Assembly: GCA_029834535.1 (NCBI GenBank)
Contig: JAQMWT010000081.1
Span: 1 to 64,000 of the forward strand
DNA length: 64,000 nucleotides
Origin: Chrysophaeum taylorii
Lineage: Eukaryota > Sar > Pelagophyceae > Pelagomonadales > Pelagomonadaceae
Reading direction: 5' to 3'
Shown piece after piece: positions 3,022 to 15,500 of the stretch (within the stretch, counting starts at the first letter, position 1; the number at the start of each line of letters is the position of its first letter). The notes beneath the pieces are model-generated. The model saw only the letters and a list, made by a program, of their open reading frames with translations. It searched no databases and had not been told where the DNA came from. Made by a program: the position numbers and the translations under genes.

Positions 3022-4977
3022 GTGCCAAGAACTCCTCGTTCTGTTGATGATGAAGGAGTACCTTTACCTGGGTGCCATGTTACCCTGTCGTTTGTTACGA
3101 CTGAGTTGCCTGTGGAGAAGAAAGACCTCGATGATCCGATGCAATTGGTCACGTCTCATGCTACGAAACAACGTCAGAAGCAACGACTGCAGACCCAGCC
3201 TAGTATTTTCCGTGATGCCGATGATTACCAAGAGTACATCGACAAGATTCCGGATAATTTGACTTTGGAAGAGATAGCCAAAGAGCAGATCACTGATGCT
3301 ACTTGCGAGGACATTCGTTATCGCATGGCTCAGGGCCATTCTCTTCGTCGGTACGGAGCCAATTATCGCTATCAAGTGGTGAAAGGAGTTCTCTACCGTG
3401 CCGCACCCGACTTGCACCCGATGATAGTCGCACCCCGAACTTTACGGACGCGCATCATCCGATTGTACCATGACACACCTCTCAATGGTGGTCATATGGG
3501 TCGTCAAAGTACAGTGCAGTCGATACTTGAACGTTTTTGGTGGCCTCATATGTCTAATGAGGTGGGTGCTTACATTGCTGGTTGCATAGTGTGCAAGAAA
3601 GCTCGTACGCCTGAACCAAAGAGAGCAGGTCTGCTTCAGCAACCGGTGTATGATGGTGATTGTGTCGTCCTTTGTATGGATTTGTTTGGACCTTTGCCCA
3701 GTGCTGGTCCCGAGACATATCTCATCGTTTTTTATCCATTTTCTCATTTCTTGATTCTTGACGTACTACACCATAAGACTGCTGAGTCAATCCTCGAGTC
3801 TTTTGTCGCGAATATATTACTCAAAGGTTATCTACCTCAGAGGATTCGTACCGACAATGGGAAAGAGTTCGTCAACAAGTTGATGGAAGAGTTTTGTCAT
3901 CTTTTCAATGTTCGGTATAGTACCACGATTCCGTATCATGCTCAGGCTAATCCTGCGGAAAGGGTCAACCGCTTTATCAAGGCTTTCCTCCGTGCGTGCC
4001 TTCAAAACCGCAAGATCACGGAATGGCCCGAATTCGCGGAGTACATTGCTTTCTGTTACAATCGTAAATTTATTCCGGGGACTCAGATCTCACCTTTCAT
4101 GCTTCGTCTTAACCGGCAGCCTTTATTGCCAACCGATTACACGATCATGGATCTTGATGTCCGCCGCCTGCCGAAAACTCGCTCCGATGTTGTGGCAGAG
4201 ACTCGCGAGAGGCTGAAGTTCTATACCGCTACGGTGAACGAAGCTCGTGAGAAGGCTCTTCGTAAACAACGTCTCGCCTATAATGCGGACCATGTTGATG
4301 TGGAGTATGAAGAAGGTTCACATGTTCTGCTCTACATCCCTTTTCTTCAGAACAAGCTTCGACCGGAATGGCGCGGTCCATTCGTTATTTTGGAACGCTT
4401 GTCCCCGGTCACTTACAGGATTGAGTCTCTTGATTCTCCTCCCGAACGCCGCTGTGTTCATGTTAGCCAGATCACCCCTGTGATGGTTTCTCCAGTGGTC
4501 GATCGAGCTGTGCCCAAGCCCAAGGAGACCTTTCGGGATGATTACAAGCATGGTAAGTTCGTTATCTTTCGGATTCCGGATAATAAACGGTCCGATTGGC
4601 GAAAGAAGATTTACGTCGCTGAAGTTTATGAAACCTATGATTTCGTGAATGATCGAGTCGCTCTGCATTTCTATGCTGATCTCGGTCCCCATGACAAGGT
4701 TTCTTATTACAAGCCTACTTCACATCTCTCTACTCGCAAGCTTAAGCCGGAATACAAGGACGTGGACGGTCGCAGTTTTACCGACAAGACCAAGGTCAAC
4801 AACAGTACCACTCCTTGTGTCACCGACTTCGCTCCGCATGAGATCGATGTGTTGATTCCTAAGTTCACTTTACGTGGTGGACGCGTTCCTGAACCTGTCG
4901 TTGAACGTGCCTACAAGAAGATTCGTTCTCGAGATGCTCATTCAGCCAAGGCTCGTGCTTCTCGCCGGACTCGCTGA
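3022..4977 (+). CDS. Integrase region of the Gypsy-like polyprotein
   Basis: This open frame of 651 codons would normally be the C-terminal part of Pol; the GTG at 3022 is only where the frame can first be read, not a convincing start. An HHCC zinc finger is visible (H150, H158, C188, C191), followed by the catalytic triad D220, D278, E313. The last two are 35 residues apart, as expected for a DD35E retroviral-type integrase. A GPY/F-like block follows (WRGPFVILERLSPVTYRI, near residues 455-472). The C-terminal ~150 residues contain an unassigned, possibly chromatin-reading, segment rich in aromatic and basic residues. Integrase inserts the cDNA copy into the genome. Unlike the upstream RT this part has no frameshift, which suggests relatively recent decay. 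Confidence 0.85.
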   Translation: MPRTPRSVDDEGVPLPGCHVTLSFVTTELPVEKKDLDDPMQLVTSHATKQRQKQRLQTQPSIFRDADDYQEYIDKIPDNLTLEEIAKEQITDATCEDIRYRMAQGHSLRRYGANYRYQVVKGVLYRAAPDLHPMIVAPRTLRTRIIRLYHDTPLNGGHMGRQSTVQSILERFWWPHMSNEVGAYIAGCIVCKKARTPEPKRAGLLQQPVYDGDCVVLCMDLFGPLPSAGPETYLIVFYPFSHFLILDVLHHKTAESILESFVANILLKGYLPQRIRTDNGKEFVNKLMEEFCHLFNVRYSTTIPYHAQANPAERVNRFIKAFLRACLQNRKITEWPEFAEYIAFCYNRKFIPGTQISPFMLRLNRQPLLPTDYTIMDLDVRRLPKTRSDVVAETRERLKFYTATVNEAREKALRKQRLAYNADHVDVEYEEGSHVLLYIPFLQNKLRPEWRGPFVILERLSPVTYRIESLDSPPERRCVHVSQITPVMVSPVVDRAVPKPKETFRDDYKHGKFVIFRIPDNKRSDWRKKIYVAEVYETYDFVNDRVALHFYADLGPHDKVSYYKPTSHLSTRKLKPEYKDVDGRSFTDKTKVNNSTTPCVTDFAPHEIDVLIPKFTLRGGRVPEPVVERAYKKIRSRDAHSAKARASRRTR

Positions 4978-5330
4978 GGGCAGCTCGTGTTCTCACCAGA
5001 GGAGTCCTGTGGCGGCAACTCCTGACCGCTAAGGCTTACCCCCCCCTCTCTCGAGGCTTGATACCCGTTCAACGGGACACCTTTCCCGATCTTCTTAGTG
5101 ACATCATACCTCTCTATTGTGAGAAGCATTCTTGCTGTATTCTTGTAGTTTCCTTGCTATCATATACCATCTCTCCATCTTGTTGAGAGGCTTGGTGAGC
5201 GTGAGCAAGGTGTGTGGCGAGCATACCCGACCCCGAGTCCGTGTTTTCCTCGTTAAGTGAGGTCTAGGATGAGTCGGTGAGCACCCCCTTTGTCACAAGG
5301 GGGTCGGGAAGGTTTTTCTGTGTCACCATA
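4978..5330 (+). other. 3' flank of the Gypsy-like element; no gene seen
   Basis: This noncoding stretch follows the integrase stop codon and may contain the 3' LTR. No partner LTR is present in the window for comparison, so that cannot be shown. The only structure seen is the short inverted repeat at 5284-5303. Confidence 0.4.
5284..5303. repeat. Inverted repeat (7-bp stem, 6-nt loop)
   Basis: CCCCCTT and AAGGGGG flank TGTCAC and are followed within 10 bases by a run of T. In RNA this would form a strong hairpin. Its position after the integrase ORF would suit a 3'-end or LTR structure, but no function is shown. Confidence 0.5.
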
Positions 5331-5425
5331 AGGCACATCCCTCCTACCCCACAAAACCACCCACATCCTTCATGCCCCACACACACACATTGCTCTTAGC
5401 AGTCGACCTTTAAAGACACACAAGT
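5331..5425 (+). repeat. Dispersed repeat 1, copy A
   Basis: The block begins with AGGCACATCCCTC, continues with CCACAAAACCACCCACATCC and TTCATG, and ends with TTAGCAGTCGACCTTTAAAG. It matches copies at 15366-15500 and 21856-21990 (same strand) and 47171-47245 (opposite strand). This copy lacks the 5' extension (GACTAGGTCCCGC...) shared by the second and third copies. Confidence 0.85.
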
Positions 5426-5430
5426 GCAGG

Positions 5431-5852
5431 CCAGTAAGTTCACCTAGTCCCAATCTCTAAACCCAGTAAGTTCACCTGGTCCCAGTAAGTTCACCTGGTC
5501 AGTAAGTTCACCTAGTCCAAATTTCTAACCCCCGTAAGTTCGGCGTAAGCCCACTCGTGCTCACACCCACTCCTTTGAGCTCGTCGCTCTCACCCCCGCC
5601 AATCCAAGCTGCTTTGATCCGCACGCGCCGCCAACCCTTGAGTTTACTCTGAAAACCCCAGTAAGCTCACCTGGTCCCAGTAAGTTCACCTGGCCCCAGT
5701 AAGTTCACCTGGTCTCAGTAAGTTCACCTGGCCCCAGTAAGTTCACCTGGTCCCAGTAAGTTCACCTGGTCACTCAGTTCACCTGGTCACTCAATTCACC
5801 TAGTCCCAATCTCAAACCCTAGTAAGCTCACCTGGTCCCAGTAAGTTCACCT
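5431..5852 (+). repeat. Minisatellite, ~19-bp unit AGTAAGTTCACCTGGTCCC
   Basis: About fourteen direct copies of a 19-bp unit occur in two clusters (5431-5540 and 5660-5852), with variants such as AGTAAGCTCACC and CACTCAGTTCACC. About 120 bp of unrelated sequence separates the clusters. The array lies between the Gypsy-like 3' flank and the Helitron fragment. Each unit contains GTAAGT, which resembles a 5' splice-site core, but no exon context supports use as splice sites. Confidence 0.85.
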
Positions 5853-6386
5853 ACAGTGCGCGTGTAGACGCCGGGAGGGGGCTTATCGGTATTGCGCAGC
5901 ACGTGTGGGGTAGGGTGGACGACTCAGAAGAGCATATCCTCGGGGTTGCCGATCGACAGAGAGCCACGTAGAGCTGGACGTGACAGAAGACGGGCTTGGG
6001 CAAGAGGACGCCGACCTCGCGGGGCGTCTGGCCCTGGCTCTTGTTGATCATTTGGCGTCGGCGATACAGGTTGGAGGAGCCTCGGTGACACGACACGATC
6101 GATCATGTATCTGGTACCGTTGCAGTGGCCGTGCGACGGGTCGAGGTTACGAAGACTTTAAGCTCGCGATCAAAGTCAGCATGCGGTTGGTTGTCAGGGA
6201 GTCGAAAACTCGACTGCAAAGAGCGAGGCATCGTCTTCCGACCCAACCTAGTCTGCCGAAAAGAACTCCGACGCCTCGTCTCCGGGGAAAAAAGGCCGCG
6301 GTCATGCGCGCGTTGTCAGCATCGACAACATCGTTTCGACGGGGCGTGAGAATGGCGCGCTGAAAGAGCCGCCGCGGGTCGTGCAA
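5851..6386 (-). pseudogene. Fragment of Helitron-type PIF1-like helicase
   Basis: On the minus strand three blocks in different frames match the C-terminal third of PIF1-family helicases of Helitrons. They are QRAILTPRRNDVVDADNAR (near 6350-6300), LRNLDPSHGHCNGTRYMID (near 6155-6095), and MINKSQGQTPREVGVLLPKP followed by VFCHVQLYVALCR (near 6050-5960). The last is the helicase motif VI region, normally INKSQGQ...HGQLYVALSR. At least two frameshifts separate the blocks, and no Walker A region or Rep domain is present, so this is a broken remnant. Helitrons are rolling-circle transposons whose Rep-helicase protein drives transposition. The fragment directly abuts the truncated RNase H end of the Copia-like element. 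Confidence 0.85.
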
Positions 6387-9300
6387 ATAGTCTGTGAGGT
6401 CTAGTGTAATCCACCATGGTTGCCATATCAGTACGACTGCCGATAAGAAGTCTAAGGTGGTCCATTAGAGCGGAAGAGCCAGAGTAGTACCATAGTCGAA
6501 GATTGCGATTTTCGGGCTTGCGCAAATAGCGGAGAGTTCCTGTTAGTACTTGAACATGCAGAAATGCTGGATTATGCATTCCTCGGGAACAACGACTAAG
6601 GCTTTGTGATAAATCAGGGCGACAGGCCAACTGTACAAAAGTGAGCTTGCCAAGTAAGGTGGAGAAGGTGTGTAGAATGAACTTGTCCATATCAGAAGAT
6701 GGCTCTCCAGTTTTATAGGTGGTTGATGGTGACATCGGTGTAGAGGTAGGACGTAACTGCATTAGAATGGGGTACTCTTCAAACAATGCATCAAGTTTAG
6801 CTTGACAGTCAAGTGAGATGGAACCATCAGTAGTACGCGTTATGCGCATGCCTAAGAGAGTATGAACTTCTTCAAAGGTGTCGACTGAGTATTCCTTTTT
6901 CATGGCTTGCTGGAATTCACGACGTAGAGTTTCCGAGGTGCAAGTGATAACAACATCATCCACTGAGAGCGTGCAAAGTAAAAACGTAGCGTCAGCTTGG
7001 ACTTTAGCGTAGATGCATGTATCTGTTCGAAAGCGTGTATAGCCTAATGAGTCAAAGAAACCATTTATGGTTTGATTCCAAAGGGCAGGACTCTGTCGTA
7101 ATCCATAAAGAGATTTAAGTAGTTTTGGGAGACGACGTCCTTGATATTTTGTATCTTCAGGATCGAGTAGGTAAATACCTTGTGGCAATTTAACATAGAC
7201 ATGAGAATCTATGGGAGCTTGAACAAAAGCGTTAGGTACATCGACGTGGTAGACTGGAAGTCGTAGATGAGCTGCTAGCGCCAGAACACAACGGATGCCA
7301 GTAAGCTGCGCCATAGGACTAAATGTGTTGAAAAAGTCAGTGCCCAGAGAAGCTAAGAATCCTCGTAGGACCAGGCGCGCTTTATGTTTGATGTATTCAC
7401 CGGCAGCATTGGTTTTTATACGTAATACGAGGCGGGTATCAATAGGCTTTGAGTTGACCATTGGCAACGCGAGTTTAAAGCAGCCAAACTTAACAATATC
7501 AAAAATCTCTTTGGAGATAGCGGAGATATAAGCTTTACGATCAGCGTCTGAGAGACCTTTGAGGCAGTTCAACTCATATTCATCAATCTTGATATCTTTG
7601 GCTTGAATTTTATATTCGTCCGGACCAACAGTGCTGGGGTCTTGAGCCGTAGTAAGATGGGTGATTGCGTAAGAGGCGACCTTATCGTTAGTGTGAGCGT
7701 GATCGGGGTCTTCGACAAGTTGAACAACTAGTAGAGGATCATCTCCAAAGTGGGCCTCAATGTAATGAGATTGCACGGTGATGTAGTCTTCGATGGCGGA
7801 GAGGTGAGGCTCGGAGGCACCATAAGAAGCATCATTATGATCCAAAATGGAATGGGGTGTGAGCAAAGCATAAGCATATTGAGCGGGAGGAACTTGAAAA
7901 GCTTGAGAGTGTTCAGAAATAAGATGAACGAGAGCACGAGGAAGGTGAAAGTCTGCAAGGCTGAAGTCGTCGAAGAGATGAACAGGAGTGGCATCCGTCG
8001 ATGGATGGCTAAGGCTCCTATGACACATAGCGGAAGAAGATTGGGAAAGCGCTTGGTGAACATGATGATGAAGGGATGGTGTAAATTCCCCCTCTGGAGG
8101 TATAGCCGTCCAGTGGATGCCATGAGCAACATGAAGGGAGTGGAGGGTGGGGTCGCAGAAAGTGATATACTGCTTGGAGAGGTCATACTTGAAGTCAGCA
8201 AGCGTACCACCAGCTTGTTTATAAGCGGCAACAGTTGGCGAAGCAATACGAGTAAGAACATCCTTGAGATTAGTCTTGCGACGAGGTTGAGGGTGATGAG
8301 GACCACGGGTGAGACGAAGGACATCCTGGGAATAGAGAGACCGATAAGACGGTAAAAGGGGTAAAGTGTTGGAGGACACTTCAGATGTGGGAGGTGTGGT
8401 GACAGAAGCAGCGGGTGCAGAAGCAGCTGGAGCACATGCGGGAACGGGAGAAGGAGCATGGGCAAGAGAAGAAGGAGTCCCCCTCTCGTGTTCAATGTCG
8501 GTGGACATAGCATTCCCCCTCTGCGCCGCATCATTGGGGGTGCTGTGAACAGAGAAGGGGATGTCGGGTGAAGGTGCGGGTGGGGGATGTTGTTCATAAT
8601 CAGGAGGGGATTTAGAAATAAGATGAGGAAAGGTAAGTTTAGAAGAAACACGGACTTGGCCGTTCTCAGGATTAAGGACAACATCAGCTAAATGATTGAC
8701 ATGGGGTGTTATTAACGGGTTTATAACATTAGCACCACATAAGTAGATGTAAGGACGACATCGAGGTTCATATTTATGAAATTCGTTGGGTTCCAAATGC
8801 AAGTAACAAACAGAGCCAAAAGGTTTGAGGTAGTCTTGTTGGGGAACATTACATTGATCCAACAAAACTTGTTGGGGGCTTAGGACTTTATTATAAATAC
8901 GTTCGAGGGAAACGTTAGGAAGGAGATTATACGATTGGACAGCATGTATAACAGCCCACGGGTAGTGTGGTGCCGGATCTGTTAGGGGGTGACCTTTATA
9001 GGATACATTAAGCATATGCCGGAGTCGTGTAGACGCGGCAGTTGCTATATGACCAACAGCGGCTTCTACTTCATGATTAAAAACATGTAAGTAAGGGGGG
9101 AAAGCAGACATATTAATACCGTGTTCAACACGAAAGGGAGTAGTAACATGTTGAGATAAGTAGGGTTTAAAAGAATCACAATAAATTTGTTTTAGTTGTA
9201 CATGAACATAAGTAGAGCAAAAGTTGCGAACAAACTCGAGGGCATTACAAAATTCGCTAGAATTGGTGCTACGACAAAAGTACACTAACAAAAATTTAGA

Positions 9301-9756
9301 AATGAGACACTTAAAGACAATGATATGGCGAAAGGATCCCCATTCCGAGAGGACAGATACGTAACCACCATCACATGCCCAGGCTTCACCAGGTTGAAAA
9401 ACTTTTTCGAATGATGGTTGCTTGGTAAGATGATGTGGATGAGGAAAGCGTTTTTTATGTAAAGTACAATCCACACAGAACTTACGGTAGGGTACATCTG
9501 AAGGATGATGTCCCGGACTGGCAATAACCTGAACAGCTTTTATAGCTTTGGAAAAACTGGAATGATGTATATTGTGAAAATTGGTAGCACGTCGCTGAGC
9601 ATCTCGAAACGCGAGGGTGCCTCTGGCATGAACTTTTCTGTCAAAGGGTGCATGTTTCTCATGTAACTGTCTTGGAGTTATGAGAGGAATATGGTTGGTT
9701 TTTGTAGGAGATGATATATCTGCGGATGGAGTGTTAGAGAGGAAGATGTGAGCCAC
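6316..9756 (-). pseudogene. Copia-like Pol: integrase, reverse transcriptase, truncated RNase H
   Basis: This 1146-codon open frame is clearly Copia Pol. The integrase lies at about residues 40-260, with a His/Cys zinc-binding region (HNIHH... CVDC) and candidate catalytic acids in WACDGG, YCDSF and NHEVEA. The RT lies at about residues 735-1000. It has the N-terminal block (RLVLRIKTN, HKARLVLRGF), the first catalytic aspartate in VYHVDVPNAFVQAP, and SVDD in place of the usual YVDD. RNase H starts after the LTGTLRYLRKPENR block but loses homology near residue 1125, where the frame enters the Helitron fragment. The first codon at 9756 is GTG. The frame is open up to a TGA at 9805, so the true Pol is translated from upstream or no longer expressed. 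Confidence 0.85.
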
Positions 9757-9867: not shown

Positions 9868-11718
9868 TTAAGGATGTGTCAGCAGGAAAGATGTTTGTGC
9901 TTTTGTGTGTGAAAAGGTTGACCTGTAGTTGTTGGTTAGAGAGGCGTGATCAGGGTAAAAGGATGGTGATAACGTTAATTTACGCAAGTCATAGACAATC
10001 CGACACAAATGTTTATAGATTACATGATAGGTTCCAGCCGGAATAGCATTAGCGATTATGTCACAGCATAGGTCCGGGGACAAAGACAGAAGAAAATTAA
10101 TTTGGTACGCTGTGAAATTATTGGCGCGTGCCAATTCGCGAGTTGAGTAATGTCGAATGCGATCGAGCCGTGGATCGTAAAGGATCATGTTAGCAAACCC
10201 ACGAATAGTAGGAGTTGGGGTGTATATAGAATGAACTTTGGCGCCCATCTTCCTATCGCTGGATGTGATGAAGCCAAGGTATCTGCTTTGAGACAGATGC
10301 ATGTCACTTAAAGCAAAAATTTTATCGATGAACTCGAGACGATTTTCCTGAGGGTAAAAAATGAAAGAATCGTGAAGCACAGGTGAAGTGTAGGAAACCA
10401 ATGTTTGTACTAGACGACGCGTGTCTTGATTTTCATTATGATGGTGATAAGCTTGGCATAACCAAAGAAAACCGGTAACAGGAGTAAGAGAAGTAGTCTT
10501 ATCGATTCCTGTATCATGTGTTTGGAAGATGTAGGTTTCGCCAAATGCATTTATGTGTGCCTGGTATTTAGAAGAAGAGTTAGAAACTATGATGTCTCCA
10601 CCTGTGTGTCTTCCACCAGTGATGTAAATGATGGAGGAAGTAGAAGATTTATTTAAGAATAACCTGTGAGATGGTTGGTTAGATTCGATAGTTGTAATAC
10701 GAAAGGACACAGGTAATGTGGTAGAGTTTGGGAACAAGCGTCCCATAATATTATAGAGGAGCACAAAAGCCTTGAGTTCAATAGGAGAGCTCATACAAGA
10801 GAGGGGCTTTCTTGAATTCGTTAAGAATCCTAAGCGAAAGTTAGAAATGCCCTCCATTTCATCTTGACTTGGATGTTCGACTGTTTTGTTTGAGTGCAGA
10901 CGAAGAAACAACATGGTTAAAGTTTCGAGCTCAGTAACTGTTAAGCGAACGGATCCTGTGCGACTGAAATTGCTGTAAGTTTTGGGTATGGACACAAATG
11001 GCATGTCAGAGAAAACCTGCGTCCAAGGTTCGTCGACAATTAACTTGCGACTGATGGAGTTAGCGTGATCTGCAATGTCCAGGAAGGAAGTGACTCGTTT
11101 ATTAGGCCAGGAAAGCAAATCTAGATGGCCGGTATTATATTTGCGAGCAACAAGGATCCATCTTTCTCTGGCTTGATAATCTCCACACAAGTAACATGGA
11201 AATCGATCACATATATCCACCGTATAGTTCATCGTAGAGAAGATGAGATTAGCAACTCGTATATGATCTTCATACGATGCAGAGTGTGGTGGCGTCATCT
11301 CCATAAAAAGAATGAGGGGCTTTAAAAGCTCAAGTACACTTAGAGCACTTGGAAACAAGGAGTCGTCCATATCGCGCTCGAAAGTTGAAATGGATCTCCC
11401 GTTGATTATGTTGCGATTGGTGCATGGAGATGTCAATTCCACTATATCAGTATAATATCTTGCACGTTCAGTGTCCGATGCTCGATGTAGATATGTAAGG
11501 AACTTGGGTAGTGACGGGAAAACTTCGATGGAATTACCAAAACGTCTTCGTAGCATATGCGTAAGATTTTCGTCGCTCTCAACAAGAACTTTAACGTTGA
11601 TGTTGATTTGCAAGTCATTGGAAGCGCAAGCCAAGAAGGCAGGAGTGGACATCCCGGAGCAAAGTAGAGTTACAGTAGGTGTTCGTGAACTTGGAGACGT
11701 AGTTACCGTATGGAGCAA
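9868..11718 (-). CDS. Retrotransposon-encoded C5-cytosine DNA methyltransferase
   Basis: This 616-codon ORF shows the motif order of C5-cytosine methyltransferases. Motif I is VTLLCSGMSTPAFLA (residues 16-30, divergent from FSGxGG). Motif II is VLVESD (44-49). Motif IV is TSPC with the putative catalytic Cys99. The motif VI Glu is in LFMEMTPP (E140, where most enzymes have ENV). Motif VIII is YQARER (Q182, R184, R186). A long target-recognition-like region (~200-500) precedes motif IX (STRELARANNF, from ~525) and motif X (IIANAIPAGTYHVIYKHL, from ~554). These enzymes transfer methyl from SAM to cytosine C5. The ORF is in frame with the protease ORF upstream (one TGA at 11737) and with Pol downstream. 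The degenerate SAM loop leaves activity uncertain, but the length and retained key residues argue against old decay. Confidence 0.82.
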   Translation of the reverse strand: MLHTVTTSPSSRTPTVTLLCSGMSTPAFLACASNDLQININVKVLVESDENLTHMLRRRFGNSIEVFPSLPKFLTYLHRASDTERARYYTDIVELTSPCTNRNIINGRSISTFERDMDDSLFPSALSVLELLKPLILFMEMTPPHSASYEDHIRVANLIFSTMNYTVDICDRFPCYLCGDYQARERWILVARKYNTGHLDLLSWPNKRVTSFLDIADHANSISRKLIVDEPWTQVFSDMPFVSIPKTYSNFSRTGSVRLTVTELETLTMLFLRLHSNKTVEHPSQDEMEGISNFRLGFLTNSRKPLSCMSSPIELKAFVLLYNIMGRLFPNSTTLPVSFRITTIESNQPSHRLFLNKSSTSSIIYITGGRHTGGDIIVSNSSSKYQAHINAFGETYIFQTHDTGIDKTTSLTPVTGFLWLCQAYHHHNENQDTRRLVQTLVSYTSPVLHDSFIFYPQENRLEFIDKIFALSDMHLSQSRYLGFITSSDRKMGAKVHSIYTPTPTIRGFANMILYDPRLDRIRHYSTRELARANNFTAYQINFLLSLSPDLCCDIIANAIPAGTYHVIYKHLCRIVYDLRKLTLSPSFYPDHASLTNNYRSTFSHTKAQTSFLLTHP

Positions 11719-11736: not shown

Positions 11737-12519
11737 TCATACAGGAGGTGAGAAATGCTTGCGTATGTAAGGCAACTGCGAATGCATTGACTCCAAGATG
11801 GTTTTGAGCCACGGGACGTAAATTACACGTTCCAGAAGGTTGGAGTATAGCTTAAGCATTTCGCGTTGTTCGTTAAAAGCACTTAGTCTGAACTGTAAGG
11901 AGCGAAGTTCCATTTTCCGAGCTTTAGCTTGTTGTAGCGAATAAATTGGGAGAGTAGGTAATAAGTTGTTTAATCTAAACAAAGTAATCTTGACATTGTC
12001 GTCAATTTTACTCTGGATAGATGATTGTCCTTTAAACTCAACCCCGTAAAGGTGTATACCAAGTTTATCTTCTCCCCATTGAGTCATGCTGATGATGTGC
12101 AGATCAGGATCGTTATGTTCGTTTTGCTTGGGTAGGAAAAGTGCAACATCTAGCTTTACGTATCCCACGTTCGGATGCTTTGAGAGAGCGGGAATGACGG
12201 TTCTTATTATCATGGCATGAGTGATACTTTGAGTATCAGTAGCCGTCTGGATAGCGGGTGACAAGGACTCGGGTAGTTTAACGATATGTATTGGATCAGC
12301 GTAACGTTTAAAGTTAATCACATGTTGAGAGGCACACGTATCAGCATATCCTGGCGTAGTCATTAGCGGTAAATTGTACTCATTGTACAATTTAAGCATT
12401 GTTGCATAACAGGCATGTGTAGAGCTTTGACCAAACACATACTGTGTCATGAAACTTTGCGTTTGTTCGGAAGGTACTACGACAAGTGTAAAACCATTGT
12501 TTAATTTCGGTAGCAACAC
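11737..12519 (-). CDS. Copia-like aspartic protease region
   Basis: The open frame runs from just after the TAA at 12709 to a TGA at 11737; 12519 is only the first possible start. A retropepsin-like active-site box is seen as YADTCASQHVI near residues 57-67. Copia proteases normally show D-S/T-G-A in a very similar setting followed by a His, so the third triad position here is Cys instead of Gly. The remaining ~190 residues, including a GVEFKG segment and a basic stretch near 195-215, are not recognised. In an intact element the protease would cut the Gag-Pol polyprotein. It sits between the Gag-like ORF and the methyltransferase in the same frame. Confidence 0.6.
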   Translation of the reverse strand: MLLPKLNNGFTLVVVPSEQTQSFMTQYVFGQSSTHACYATMLKLYNEYNLPLMTTPGYADTCASQHVINFKRYADPIHIVKLPESLSPAIQTATDTQSITHAMIIRTVIPALSKHPNVGYVKLDVALFLPKQNEHNDPDLHIISMTQWGEDKLGIHLYGVEFKGQSSIQSKIDDNVKITLFRLNNLLPTLPIYSLQQAKARKMELRSLQFRLSAFNEQREMLKLYSNLLERVIYVPWLKTILESMHSQLPYIRKHFSPPV

Positions 12520-12708: not shown

Positions 12709-14085
12709 TTATGTTTCAGCAGTCCCCCTCTGCTCCGCATCACTGGGAGACGCTGCAGGAGAGGAAATTTCGGCTTGATACTTTTCTTCTATAACATGAG
12801 ATTCTTTATTGGCTTCTAAGAGGCTCGAGATGGTGTTGGACATCGTATCAACTCGTGATAAGTATAGATGAACTTGAGTAGCTTCATCAGGATCTAGAGA
12901 CTGTGTCGAAGCTTGGGAAGCGGTTGTCCAAAGGGTACTCAGTAAGCTCTTCATTTCCTCCTGTACCATTTTAGAGTCGGTAGAAGGATTGGGATTCGCT
13001 TCCTGTAATTTACCAAACAGGTGGCGAAGACGGTCAACTTGATAAGTAGCCCTGTCCATGAGTGACATATTGGAGCGTGAGTTGCGGTTAGAGGACTGTG
13101 AGTAGACAGGACGGTCGAAACTGGTGCCTTTGACATTATAATTTGAAGGTGGACGATAGTAGGACGTATCACGAGGTGAAATTGTCGATGCTTTATCTTT
13201 TGCATTACGAAGCTTACGAGCGTTAAAACCAGACTGTCCAGCAACAGTAGCTAACAATGAGTAAGCATTGTTTAGAGAATCATGAGATTGATGAATAGTA
13301 TCCATCAATAATACCTTAGGTGGCTTGGTAGCGGTAGTACCAGGGATATATGGAATCCATGATGCGGGTTTATCCAAGCGTCGGTTAGATGAAAACTTTG
13401 TCTCATTATATATCTTTAACAAGAACTCCAATAACGGACGAACATCGTTGGGATCAACTAGCTTTAAAATTTCAGGATCGTGAGTCGAGTTGTTAGCAGA
13501 GCGTGTCTCATGAAGTTTGCACCATTCCAATAAAGACTGAGAATAGCGTTCGTGATCAGAGGGATTAGCATATAGACGATAGATCTCCTCGTGAGCTTTA
13601 AGTGCGATTATGGAATCATTAAATTGAATTGATGCTTCGTCATGGTTTAATTGATTTGCCTGAGTTTGGAAAGCAAGGAGTTGTTCGACAAATACATGAG
13701 CATACCAATTAACATTTAAGGACATTCGATTAAACTGAGATTTAAGTTCAGTGACATCTGTACAAGATACTGTTTCATAGTAATGATAAGCTAAACGCGT
13801 TACTGCACGTAATTTATTAGGGTGTGCAGTAAACGAACAAATCTTCTTTAACTGCGGCCACATGGCGAGGGCAGGGCGTTCTTGAGATTCTAGGTTGAAG
13901 AACGTGTACAGGAAACCGGCGTAAGTTTCGCAATGTTTAATCCAATCGGCATTAGAGAGACCTGTGAAGGATATGTTGGTTAGAGATGAGTCATACACAA
14001 CTGATTTAGGGAATCGGGTATCTAATAAAGTGAGGACACGCTTGACATCCTCATTTAATTCGGGTCGAAAAAAATTATACGACTC
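12709..14085 (-). CDS. Copia-like Gag region
   Basis: The frame is open from just after the TAA at 14086 to a TAA at 12709 (about 458 codons; a start-codon-based reading begins at 13998 with GTG). It is largely helical and rich in Ser, Asn, Gln and Thr in its second half, with repeated Tyr-Arg-Ser segments (near 13200-13050). No CCHC zinc knuckle is present. Its place immediately upstream of the protease, and its composition, are what make Gag the best reading; sequence identity to a known Gag was not recognised. Gag forms the virus-like particle in which reverse transcription takes place. Confidence 0.55.
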   Translation of the reverse strand, partial: ESYNFFRPELNEDVKRVLTLLDTRFPKSVVYDSSLTNISFTGLSNADWIKHCETYAGFLYTFFNLESQERPALAMWPQLKKICSFTAHPNKLRAVTRLAYHYYETVSCTDVTELKSQFNRMSLNVNWYAHVFVEQLLAFQTQANQLNHDEASIQFNDSIIALKAHEEIYRLYANPSDHERYSQSLLEWCKLHETRSANNSTHDPEILKLVDPNDVRPLLEFLLKIYNETKFSSNRRLDKPASWIPYIPGTTATKPPKVLLMDTIHQSHDSLNNAYSLLATVAGQSGFNARKLRNAKDKASTISPRDTSYYRPPSNYNVKGTSFDRPVYSQSSNRNSRSNMSLMDRATYQVDRLRHLFGKLQEANPNPSTDSKMVQEEMKSLLSTLWTTASQASTQSLDPDEATQVHLYLSRVDTMSNTISSLLEANKESHVIEEKYQAEISSPAASPSDAEQRGTAET

Positions 14086-14477: not shown

Positions 14478-15365
14478 AGTCGTGACCTATTGAAAATGAG
14501 TTATAGGAAGGATAAAAGAAGTTGACATGTTTGAATGAAGGGCTTCTAACATGCGGAGGAATATGTACAGTTCGCTATTTTAAGCGTGAGCTTATATACA
14601 GGACCAAACAAATCATTATGCCATTTAAGCTTGATACTTTTGAGACTGAAGAATGTATTAATTCTCGAGCAGTCAGTCTTTTGTCGGGGAATAGAAGGAA
14701 AAAACCCGTACAAGTTTCCGCGGCTTGTGTAGGAAAAATTTTAATTTTATTGGCTATGCGAGTGCATAAGACCAGTGGCCGACCCAACTCGGTCACAAAC
14801 CAAATTAACTGGTGGTCAAATACCGTCACACAACAAATATGTACAGTAGACCACCGCCATACCCATTGTCGCATTGTACTCGTAATCAGGCGCAAACTGA
14901 TCACTCCATTATACGCACAACACAGTTGGGCTGACACACCTGCGCATCTGGGCCCATAACCTGGAGAGATTTGACCCTCTCCGGGTACATGGTAGAGACT
15001 ACGTGCAGTCTTAGGCGCGTACAGACCATTCCGCTTGTCACATGCTACTACACAAGGTAGGGACTTAGGCCCTAACTCCTTAAGGACATTAAGTCCCATA
15101 GAAGCGTTTACACTGACAACGAGGAACGAAGCCTCTGTTAATTAAACAGAAAACACCGTACCTAACGGTACGCACCTGGAGACCTACTCCATGTTGGAAG
15201 AGAGCTTCAGACTGTATTCCGCATAGTCATGAATTAGTAATTGCGGAAGGGTAAGGAAGGAAAGAGGGAAAGCCGTAATGCGGAGAGAAAACCCTCTAGT
15301 GGAGATAGGTGTGAAAGGAGTGAGATGTTCCAGTGTCGTACACGTAATAGTGTAGCTCTCTGGAG
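14478..15365. other. Upstream flank of the Copia-like element, no gene seen
   Basis: AT-rich noncoding sequence with only short unsupported ORFs. It is the expected place for the 5' LTR, primer-binding site and leader of the minus-strand element. No second LTR copy exists in the window to prove it, and I could not identify a primer-binding site with confidence. Confidence 0.4.
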
Positions 15366-15500
15366 ACCCCGACTAGGTCCCGCATACTTATCTCCGCCCG
15401 TCAGGCACATCCCTCATACCCCACAAAACCACCCACATCCTTCATGCGCCACACACACACCCCCCTCTTAGCAGTCGACCTTTAAAGACAAACAGACAAA
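15366..15500 (+). repeat. Dispersed repeat 1, copy B
   Basis: It starts with ACCCCGACTAGGTCCCGC, continues through TACTTATCTCCGCCCGTCAG and the GGCACATCCCTCAT block, and ends at CAGTCGACCTTTAAAGACA. It is nearly identical to copy C (21856-21990) over about 130 bp. It marks the right boundary of the mobile-element block, as copy A lies next to the Gypsy-like element. Confidence 0.9.

Follow-up and report, generated by a model that had tools for sequence, protein, structure and literature searches.

We found that an LTR retrotransposon of the Ty1/Copia (Pseudoviridae) type, present as a defective copy in the 64,000-nucleotide stretch of DNA analysed here (the window), carries in its Pol region a full-length open reading frame (ORF) that profile comparisons and conserved motifs identify as a divergent protein of the C5-cytosine methyltransferase (MTase) type. 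The same genome holds three divergent groups of MTase-bearing Copia elements in many copies, named A1 (the group of the window copy), A2 and B. Taking all parts together, we consider it probable that this domain would be dosed by readthrough of a UGA codon, would methylate the element's own DNA and would go back to a single capture. The features of the window element, from its 5' end, are as follows.

14962 to 15364, minus strand: 5' LTR of 403 bp (TCCAGAG...CTCTCCA), which recurs with 89% identity as the 3' LTR of copy G000:C546
14943 to 14961, minus strand: PBS GGTTATGGGCCCAGATGCG, immediately behind the LTR and present in both other A1 copies with an available 5' end (L042 and L066)
12709 to 13998, minus strand: gag-like ORF (partial gag), from its position and a homologous ORF in L042
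11737 to 12519, minus strand: protease-like ORF with a DTCAS motif, as seen when two A1 copies are aligned with one from A2
11737 to 11739, minus strand: in-frame TGA separating protease and MTase, a TGA in 32 of 32 distinct A1 and 6 of 6 distinct A2 copies
9868 to 11718, minus strand: C5-cytosine methyltransferase-type domain with motifs I to X, from profiles, copies and the family alignment
9868 to 9870, minus strand: stop codon that ends the MTase frame ahead of the integrase in this copy; several other copies read on into the integrase
6316 to 9756, minus strand: integrase and RVT_2 reverse transcriptase, from Pfam matches, followed by the beginning of RNase H
6402, minus strand: end of similarity to other copies, a 3' truncation within RNase H, from blastn against L049 and L050

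The ORF of 616 codons (9868 to 11718, minus strand) is flanked by the protease-like ORF and the integrase/RT ORF, which is the location within a Copia element given by the original prediction. In the integrase/RT ORF, Pfam RVT_2 matched at 6772 to 7458 with an E value of 8.4e-42, and N-terminal to it there were matches to SH3_retrovirus (6e-5) and rve (0.008), both below their own cut-offs. We assigned the backbone to Ty1/Copia because of this RVT_2 match with the integrase (IN) upstream of the reverse transcriptase (RT), together with the LTRs, the PBS and the PPT. The Pfam search gave no family at its cut-off for the gag-like ORF and no match for the protease-like ORF; in L042, the gag coding sequence extends further upstream than the gag-like ORF of the window. 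The TTG "start" of the 616-codon ORF is mechanical, as the frame extends back to the TGA at 11737 to 11739, and no ATG precedes motif I in the window frame. Of the set formed by two LTRs, PBS and PPT, the window copy has only the 5' LTR and the PBS, and no second LTR was found between 5000 and 16500. The copy had been described as near-intact, which holds for the MTase ORF but not for the element, which is cut off in RNase H at 6402, has no detected 3' LTR and carries the stop behind the MTase. In L041, the MTase continues into the integrase as a 1,173-aa ORF.

The ends of the element could be followed in copy C546 (A1), with both LTRs, a PBS behind the 5' LTR and TTGAGGGGG, the likely PPT, ahead of the 3' LTR; the 5' and 3' LTRs of this copy agree on the LTR ends. 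It measures ca. 12.8 kb in total, including an insertion, and because its LTRs are just 84% identical and no target-site duplication was seen, it appears to be old or recombinant. LTRs were also looked for in A2 and not identified. We take the PBS GGTTATGGGCCCAGATGCG to resemble the complement of the anticodon arm of initiator tRNA-Met; one search pattern did not find a host initiator tRNA in the genome. Drosophila copia uses a half-tRNA as a primer (PMC5371799). At the protease, the motif reads D-S/T-C-A-S/T in A1 and A2 and DGGAS in B, compared with D-S/T-G-A in the aspartic protease of Ty1/Copia elements.

Several observations concern the sequence around these elements. A 97-bp direct repeat, 91% identical, occurs in the window at 5326 to 5422 and 15398 to 15494, just outside the 5' LTR and again past the point where the 3' part of the element is cut off. 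Arrays of CCAGTAAGTTCACCTGGT-like units were found at 5429 to 5852 of the window (an A1 copy) and at 9256 to 9560 of L040 (a B copy), both adjoining truncated element ends. A 229-bp piece is inserted in L050 (1205 to 1437, reverse complement) at the RNase H position that matches the window break at 6402, and L049 has the same piece at other places (6154 to 6165 and 6843 to 7071); this RNase H position is possibly a hotspot for breaks or insertions. The pol of L049 (A1) also contains a 300-nt direct repeat (3170 to 3469 and 3629 to 3928) with a spacing of 459 nt, a multiple of three, and the frame stays open. Finally, an A1 copy has an additional ORF behind RNase H and ahead of the 3' LTR, and in A2 such an ORF follows pol; env-like genes occupy this position in sireviruses. 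No Pfam family matched its pieces in L050, L049 and L048. Its coordinates are as follows.

L050, 1622 to 2860, minus strand: additional ORF
L049, 7222 to 8001, plus strand: additional ORF
L048, 6058 to 7110, plus strand, with L052, 2 to 646, plus strand: additional ORF

We searched the genome (70.8 Mb in 697 contigs) for further copies; the counts are lower bounds derived from the best candidates scored, and matches may not equal separate insertions (C10 and C297, for example, are apparently one locus assembled twice). For the window MTase, at least 78 matches were found in the same genome, so that the motif-bearing ORF does occur in other copies of the element, and 64 of them cover at least 500 of the 616 residues at 75 to 100% identity. 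A search with PF00145 gave at least 57 matches, of which two are the host proteins L001 (1498 to 2577, 4.1e-19) and L002 (1006 to 3537, 7.9e-18), C5-MTases that are not retrotransposon-like; by reading, one is DNMT2-like and the other a long protein. The six read among the other 55 (L003 to L008) all belong to group B, a second, diverged retrotransposon MTase with at least 78 matches, 45 of them covering at least 500 of 705 residues. In L039 (B), the DNA_methylase, rve and RVT_2 matches all fall within a single long ORF, and L040 looks similar. Group A2, found through the most repeated RVT_2 type, has an MTase 47% identical to that of the window; when the N-terminal half of this MTase served as query, the 150 candidates scored yielded at least 151 matches, 150 of them listed, and in L057 MTase, IN and RT form a single ORF of 1,691 aa.

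The order in the copies read was protease (PR), MTase, IN and RT. All four loci chosen by their RT (L048, L049, L067 and L068) contained the MTase. Among the 150 RVT_2 matches listed, which are the best-scoring ones, 59 were preceded, at 2.9 to 6.3 kb and in the same orientation, by an MTase match among those listed for A1 and A2, and 91 were not; the three of these 91 that were read (L049, L067 and L068) do carry an MTase. MTase-free Copia elements may nevertheless exist in this genome. As for the host, it is apparently a chlorophyll a/c alga, because there are 84 matches to PF00504 (chlorophyll-binding protein) and, of two such proteins compared with the PDB, one best matched fucoxanthin chlorophyll a/c types; the other had mixed light-harvesting matches. 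The light-harvesting genes at G000:C88 (35406 to 41267) and C539 (24843 to 30127) form close-spaced, equal-scoring runs, apparently tandem arrays.

Identification of the MTase depended on its relatives and on profiles. The window ORF alone scored weakly against PF00145 (E=0.079, 12.8 bits, under the cut-off of 22), as did family A, with E values of 1 or lower in only 3 of 16 alignment rows and a best value of 4.4e-4, under the cut-off; the same profile did not match the A2 polyprotein piece, NCBIfam gave no match for family A, and the PDB sequence search returned nothing meaningful. Thus, the PF00145 test proposed for the ORF failed on the single sequence and succeeded on a relative, since group B, with its MTase in the same element position, reached 9.8e-8 and 32.2 bits, above 22. 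When 5.8 billion proteins were searched by shared words, a single one was found for the window ORF, the MMETSP protein P0001 (41% identity over 59% of the ORF, E=1.1e-78), which itself missed the PF00145 cut-off (4.4e-4, 20.2 bits). A PHROG "DNA methyltransferase" profile matched P0001 at 3e-8, B at 1.4e-7, the window ORF at 0.006 and the A2 copy at 0.059, and phrog_116 was the top profile match for the catalytic half of family A. In profile-profile comparisons with six C5-MTases (four from phages and two from the host), family A (16 rows) gave E=7.6e-5 and a probability of 62%, spanning motifs I to VIII, and B gave 4.3e-10 and 97%. The controls failed: IN/RT of the elements scored 0.54 against the same C5-MTases and 0.17 against family A, and the element protease scored 0.42 against the C5-MTases, each with a probability below 1%. 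Because relatives and profiles score well while the controls do not, we regard the window domain, judged from sequence comparison, as a C5-MTase homologue.

The motifs point the same way. With the numbering of the original prediction, they were examined in an alignment of family A made up of 14 A1 copies (window included), one A2 copy and the MMETSP homologue. Family A has motifs I, IV (PC), VI (E), VIII (QxRxR) and X in order, with the catalytic residues retained, and the positions named by the original prediction proved to be conserved. Gly22, Glu47, Cys99 and Gln182 are invariant across all 16 rows, Pro98, Glu140, Arg184 and Arg186 are each present in 15 of the 16, and Asn557 and Pro560 occur in all 15 rows that extend that far. 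A long stretch (approximately residues 190 to 525) separates motif VIII from IX. There are also departures, such as EMT in motif VI of group A, where ENV is usual, and RC, D140, QGR or QRT in single copies, and motif VIII of group B is degenerate, with no clear QxRxR.

The MTase of A1 is under purifying selection (dN/dS of ca. 0.08 to 0.2). Median pairwise values (Nei-Gojobori) fell from between 0.14 and 0.16 in close pairs to 0.065 in distant pairs in a first set of 32 A1 sequences, made up of L043, L044 and 30 loci that include the window copy; these 30 are the best-scoring of the 78 matches, 24 of them free of internal stops, and are therefore biased to intact copies. Over matched regions, for which L031 was dropped beforehand, the medians in bins of rising dS were 0.20, 0.12, 0.09 and 0.08 for the MTase (23 stop-free copies), 0.03, 0.24, 0.08 and 0.08 for the protease (16 copies, leaving out 13 of 29 loci, 11 for stops and L017 and L029 for a shifted junction) and 0.40, 0.29, 0.20 and 0.14 for the IN stretch following the MTase (10 copies). 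Given such similar medians, the MTase is conserved about as strictly as the protease. A chance ORF was ruled out by the genome copies, the purifying selection and the profile scores.

A UGA is strictly kept between protease and MTase in A1 and A2. All 32 distinct A1 copies whose junction aligned have it (34 loci, with two places represented twice; the junction of L044 was not alignable), and so do all six distinct A2 copies (seven loci, one place represented twice), the A2 scan having required a stop at that place, which each copy had. Altogether, TGA occupied 38 of 38 junctions, with no TAA, TAG or sense codon, despite saturation at synonymous sites between A1 and A2. Throughout A1, the TGA is in frame with the MTase, the one exception being L017, in which a deletion close by has shifted it. 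All three stop types occur among the 14 long ORFs of the window that were checked. The next codon varies, being CGC or CAC in A1 and, among the distinct A2 copies (L057 and others), ATG in four of six, TTA in one and CTA in one; TGA CTA is a classic leaky stop context. The A1 copies read had no in-frame ATG from the TGA to motif I, and no stable RNA structure was detected 3' of the UGA in five copies (z of 0.05 to 0.53). This lack of structure, the variable next codon and the shifted frame of L017 count against readthrough. In group B (L039), the gag and pol frames overlap instead. We infer that recoding would take place at the UGA, with less MTase-IN-RT than Gag-PR being made as a result.

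We also looked at CpG composition. The observed/expected ratio was 0.92 in the window element (GC 0.43) versus 1.37 in the host part (GC 0.62). CpG transitions exceeded other C/G transitions 1.47-fold in pairs less than 3% apart and 1.35-, 1.11- and 0.97-fold with growing distance, and the transversion control gave 1.06, 0.92, 0.74 and 0.98 in the same classes. This mutation signal is slight and no proof of methylation. The idea that the element silences or masks itself found no direct backing in these values, and a strong CpG decay as a methylation footprint was ruled out, the excess being only slight.

In the mechanism that we favour, translation up to the UGA would yield Gag-PR, and a minority of ribosomes would read through it (or reinitiate) to produce MTase-IN-RT-RNH, so that the MTase would enter the particle at the same low dose as the RT. 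There it would methylate the newly made DNA of the element before integration, methylation of element cDNA being the likeliest role, and the methylated DNA could resemble host DNA, be protected or set the chromatin state after insertion. The readthrough step has its own competitor, in which the UGA is a plain terminator and MTase-Pol comes from independent initiation or from another RNA. This is rather unlikely in our judgement. In its favour, an ATG stands right behind the TGA in four of the six distinct A2 copies, P0001 begins with Met at about the same place and RNA structure was missing 3' of the UGA in the five copies examined. It fits poorly with the A1 copies read, which offer no in-frame ATG ahead of motif I, and with a TGA that was never replaced by TAA or TAG in 38 junctions, even though synonymous sites have reached saturation between A1 and A2.

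Other alternatives concern the protein itself. It may be a true MTase that acts on RNA, its target being the element's genomic transcript or the tRNA that primes at the PBS, which we consider improbable. The PBS resembles an anticodon arm, DNMT2-type C5-MTases modify tRNA anticodon loops, and the weak CpG signal does not require DNA methylation; moreover, the relevant sections of de Mendoza et al. propose RNA as a substrate of the Symbiodinium LINE enzyme (PMC5890265). Against it, the MTase did not group with the host DNMT2-like protein in a small tree, and the long segment that separates motif VIII from motif IX may serve to recognise a DNA target. We give just as little weight to a catalytically dead MTase retained as a nucleic-acid-binding or structural part of Pol. 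The non-canonical motifs (EMT for ENV, and the single-copy RC, D140, QGR and QRT) would fit such a protein, and purifying selection is equally compatible with a structural role, but Cys99 and Gln182 persist in every one of the 16 rows and Glu140 is missing from just one, although the A2 copy and the MMETSP homologue among these rows share only 47% and 41% identity with the window MTase. That the ORF is no MTase at all, with chance motifs in an unrelated retrotransposon domain, is very improbable and already largely refuted: the weak single-sequence scores (E=0.079, 3 of 16 rows, nothing meaningful in the PDB) would agree with it, but the motifs come in order, relatives and profiles reach 3e-8 and 7.6e-5, and the controls fail.

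Regarding origin, the MTases of A and B share the location between PR and IN, and an alignment of the two families covers 471 columns, reaching from motif I as far as motif X, with 21% identity (E=1.5e-4, probability 52%). In a tree of 13 sequences, whose reference set was small and included no DNMT1 or DNMT3, ultrafast bootstrap support of 99% set A and B together apart from the seven other C5-MTases, and the two did not group with the host DNMT2-like protein. The co-linearity, the same place and the joint split in the tree lead us to favour one ancestral capture for A and B, after which, as the co-linearity suggests, MTase and Copia would have co-evolved for long. Longer A1 and B queries had no homologue among the best 7,994 and 7,989 word-sharing candidates, respectively. 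A viral source was not supported: a search of IMG/VR, sensitive to close relatives only, gave no confirmed relative of the A1 or B query, and the phage matches were at the general C5-MTase level (the best, to B, covered 31% of the query at 25% identity, E=5e-6). As a broader and more tentative picture, possible although we would not rely on it, the C5-MTase would be a standard ancestral domain of Copia Pol here, captured once before the split of A1, A2 and B, kept since, dosed by the UGA in A1 and A2, and acting during replication, inside the particle, on the DNA, RNA or primer tRNA of the element itself.

The precedents named in the original prediction, Symbiodinium and Klebsormidium, are real: de Mendoza et al. 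(2018) described DNMTs in LINE and DIRS elements of Symbiodinium and in Gypsy elements of Klebsormidium (PMC5890265, relevant sections, as for the comparisons that follow). KnitGypsy-Dnmt3 of Klebsormidium nitens is likewise an LTR retrotransposon with a C5-MTase in Pol under purifying selection, but it is a Gypsy element with a DNMT3-type enzyme and fewer copies, whereas here the backbone is Copia (RVT_2), the MTase lies between PR and IN, and the enzyme is divergent (PMC5890265). SymbioDIRS-Dnmt3 and SymbioLINE-Dnmt comprise hundreds of intronless MTase copies in retrotransposons, with selection keeping the MTase, although these are DIRS and LINE elements, while ours are Copia, with the MTase in four of four loci picked by RT (PMC5890265). 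In Symbiodinium, the Copia elements are reported to have no DNMT, MTase-free forms are said to coexist, and the DIRS enzymes performed CG methylation in yeast (PMC5890265). None of these published backbones (LINE, DIRS or Gypsy) fits the Copia elements found here.

With the Ty1/Copia elements of the Pseudoviridae profile (PMC8515867), in the parts of it used here, our elements share the LTRs, a PBS that resembles the initiator tRNA-Met type, the PPT and the order gag-PR-IN-RT-RNH, and differ from it in the extra MTase domain, in the ORF downstream of pol in A1 and A2, and in size (ca. 12.8 kb with an insertion in C546, versus 4 to >9 kb). The phage DNA methyltransferases of phrog_116 are similar in the catalytic half but stand outside any retroelement. 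The Sola1 element of Ectocarpus is likewise an algal transposon with a DNA methyltransferase, yet, as presented in the portion of PMC12477816 concerned, it is a DNA transposon whose enzyme is predicted to be 4mC or 6mA rather than C5. One sentence of a 2025 paper places some DNMT3 members in "LTR Copia and DIRS" (PMC12344493); it credits the 2018 paper, whose relevant sections give Gypsy, DIRS and LINE, and the section of the 2025 paper that contains the sentence describes no Copia element, so that the wording "LTR Copia" may be a slip. Apart from that sentence in PMC12344493, the main texts of the open-access literature searched contained no description of a Copia MTase element.

A Copia lineage with an MTase as an apparently standard Pol domain therefore appears to be new relative to the published LINE, DIRS and Gypsy cases. 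Many hosts silence transposons by cytosine methylation, and transposons that encode the writer of a silencing mark are a puzzle. The Copia case would mean that a further class of retrotransposons captured such an enzyme independently, and its intact domains and diversity suffice to test the action of the enzyme and its signature in the host methylome.
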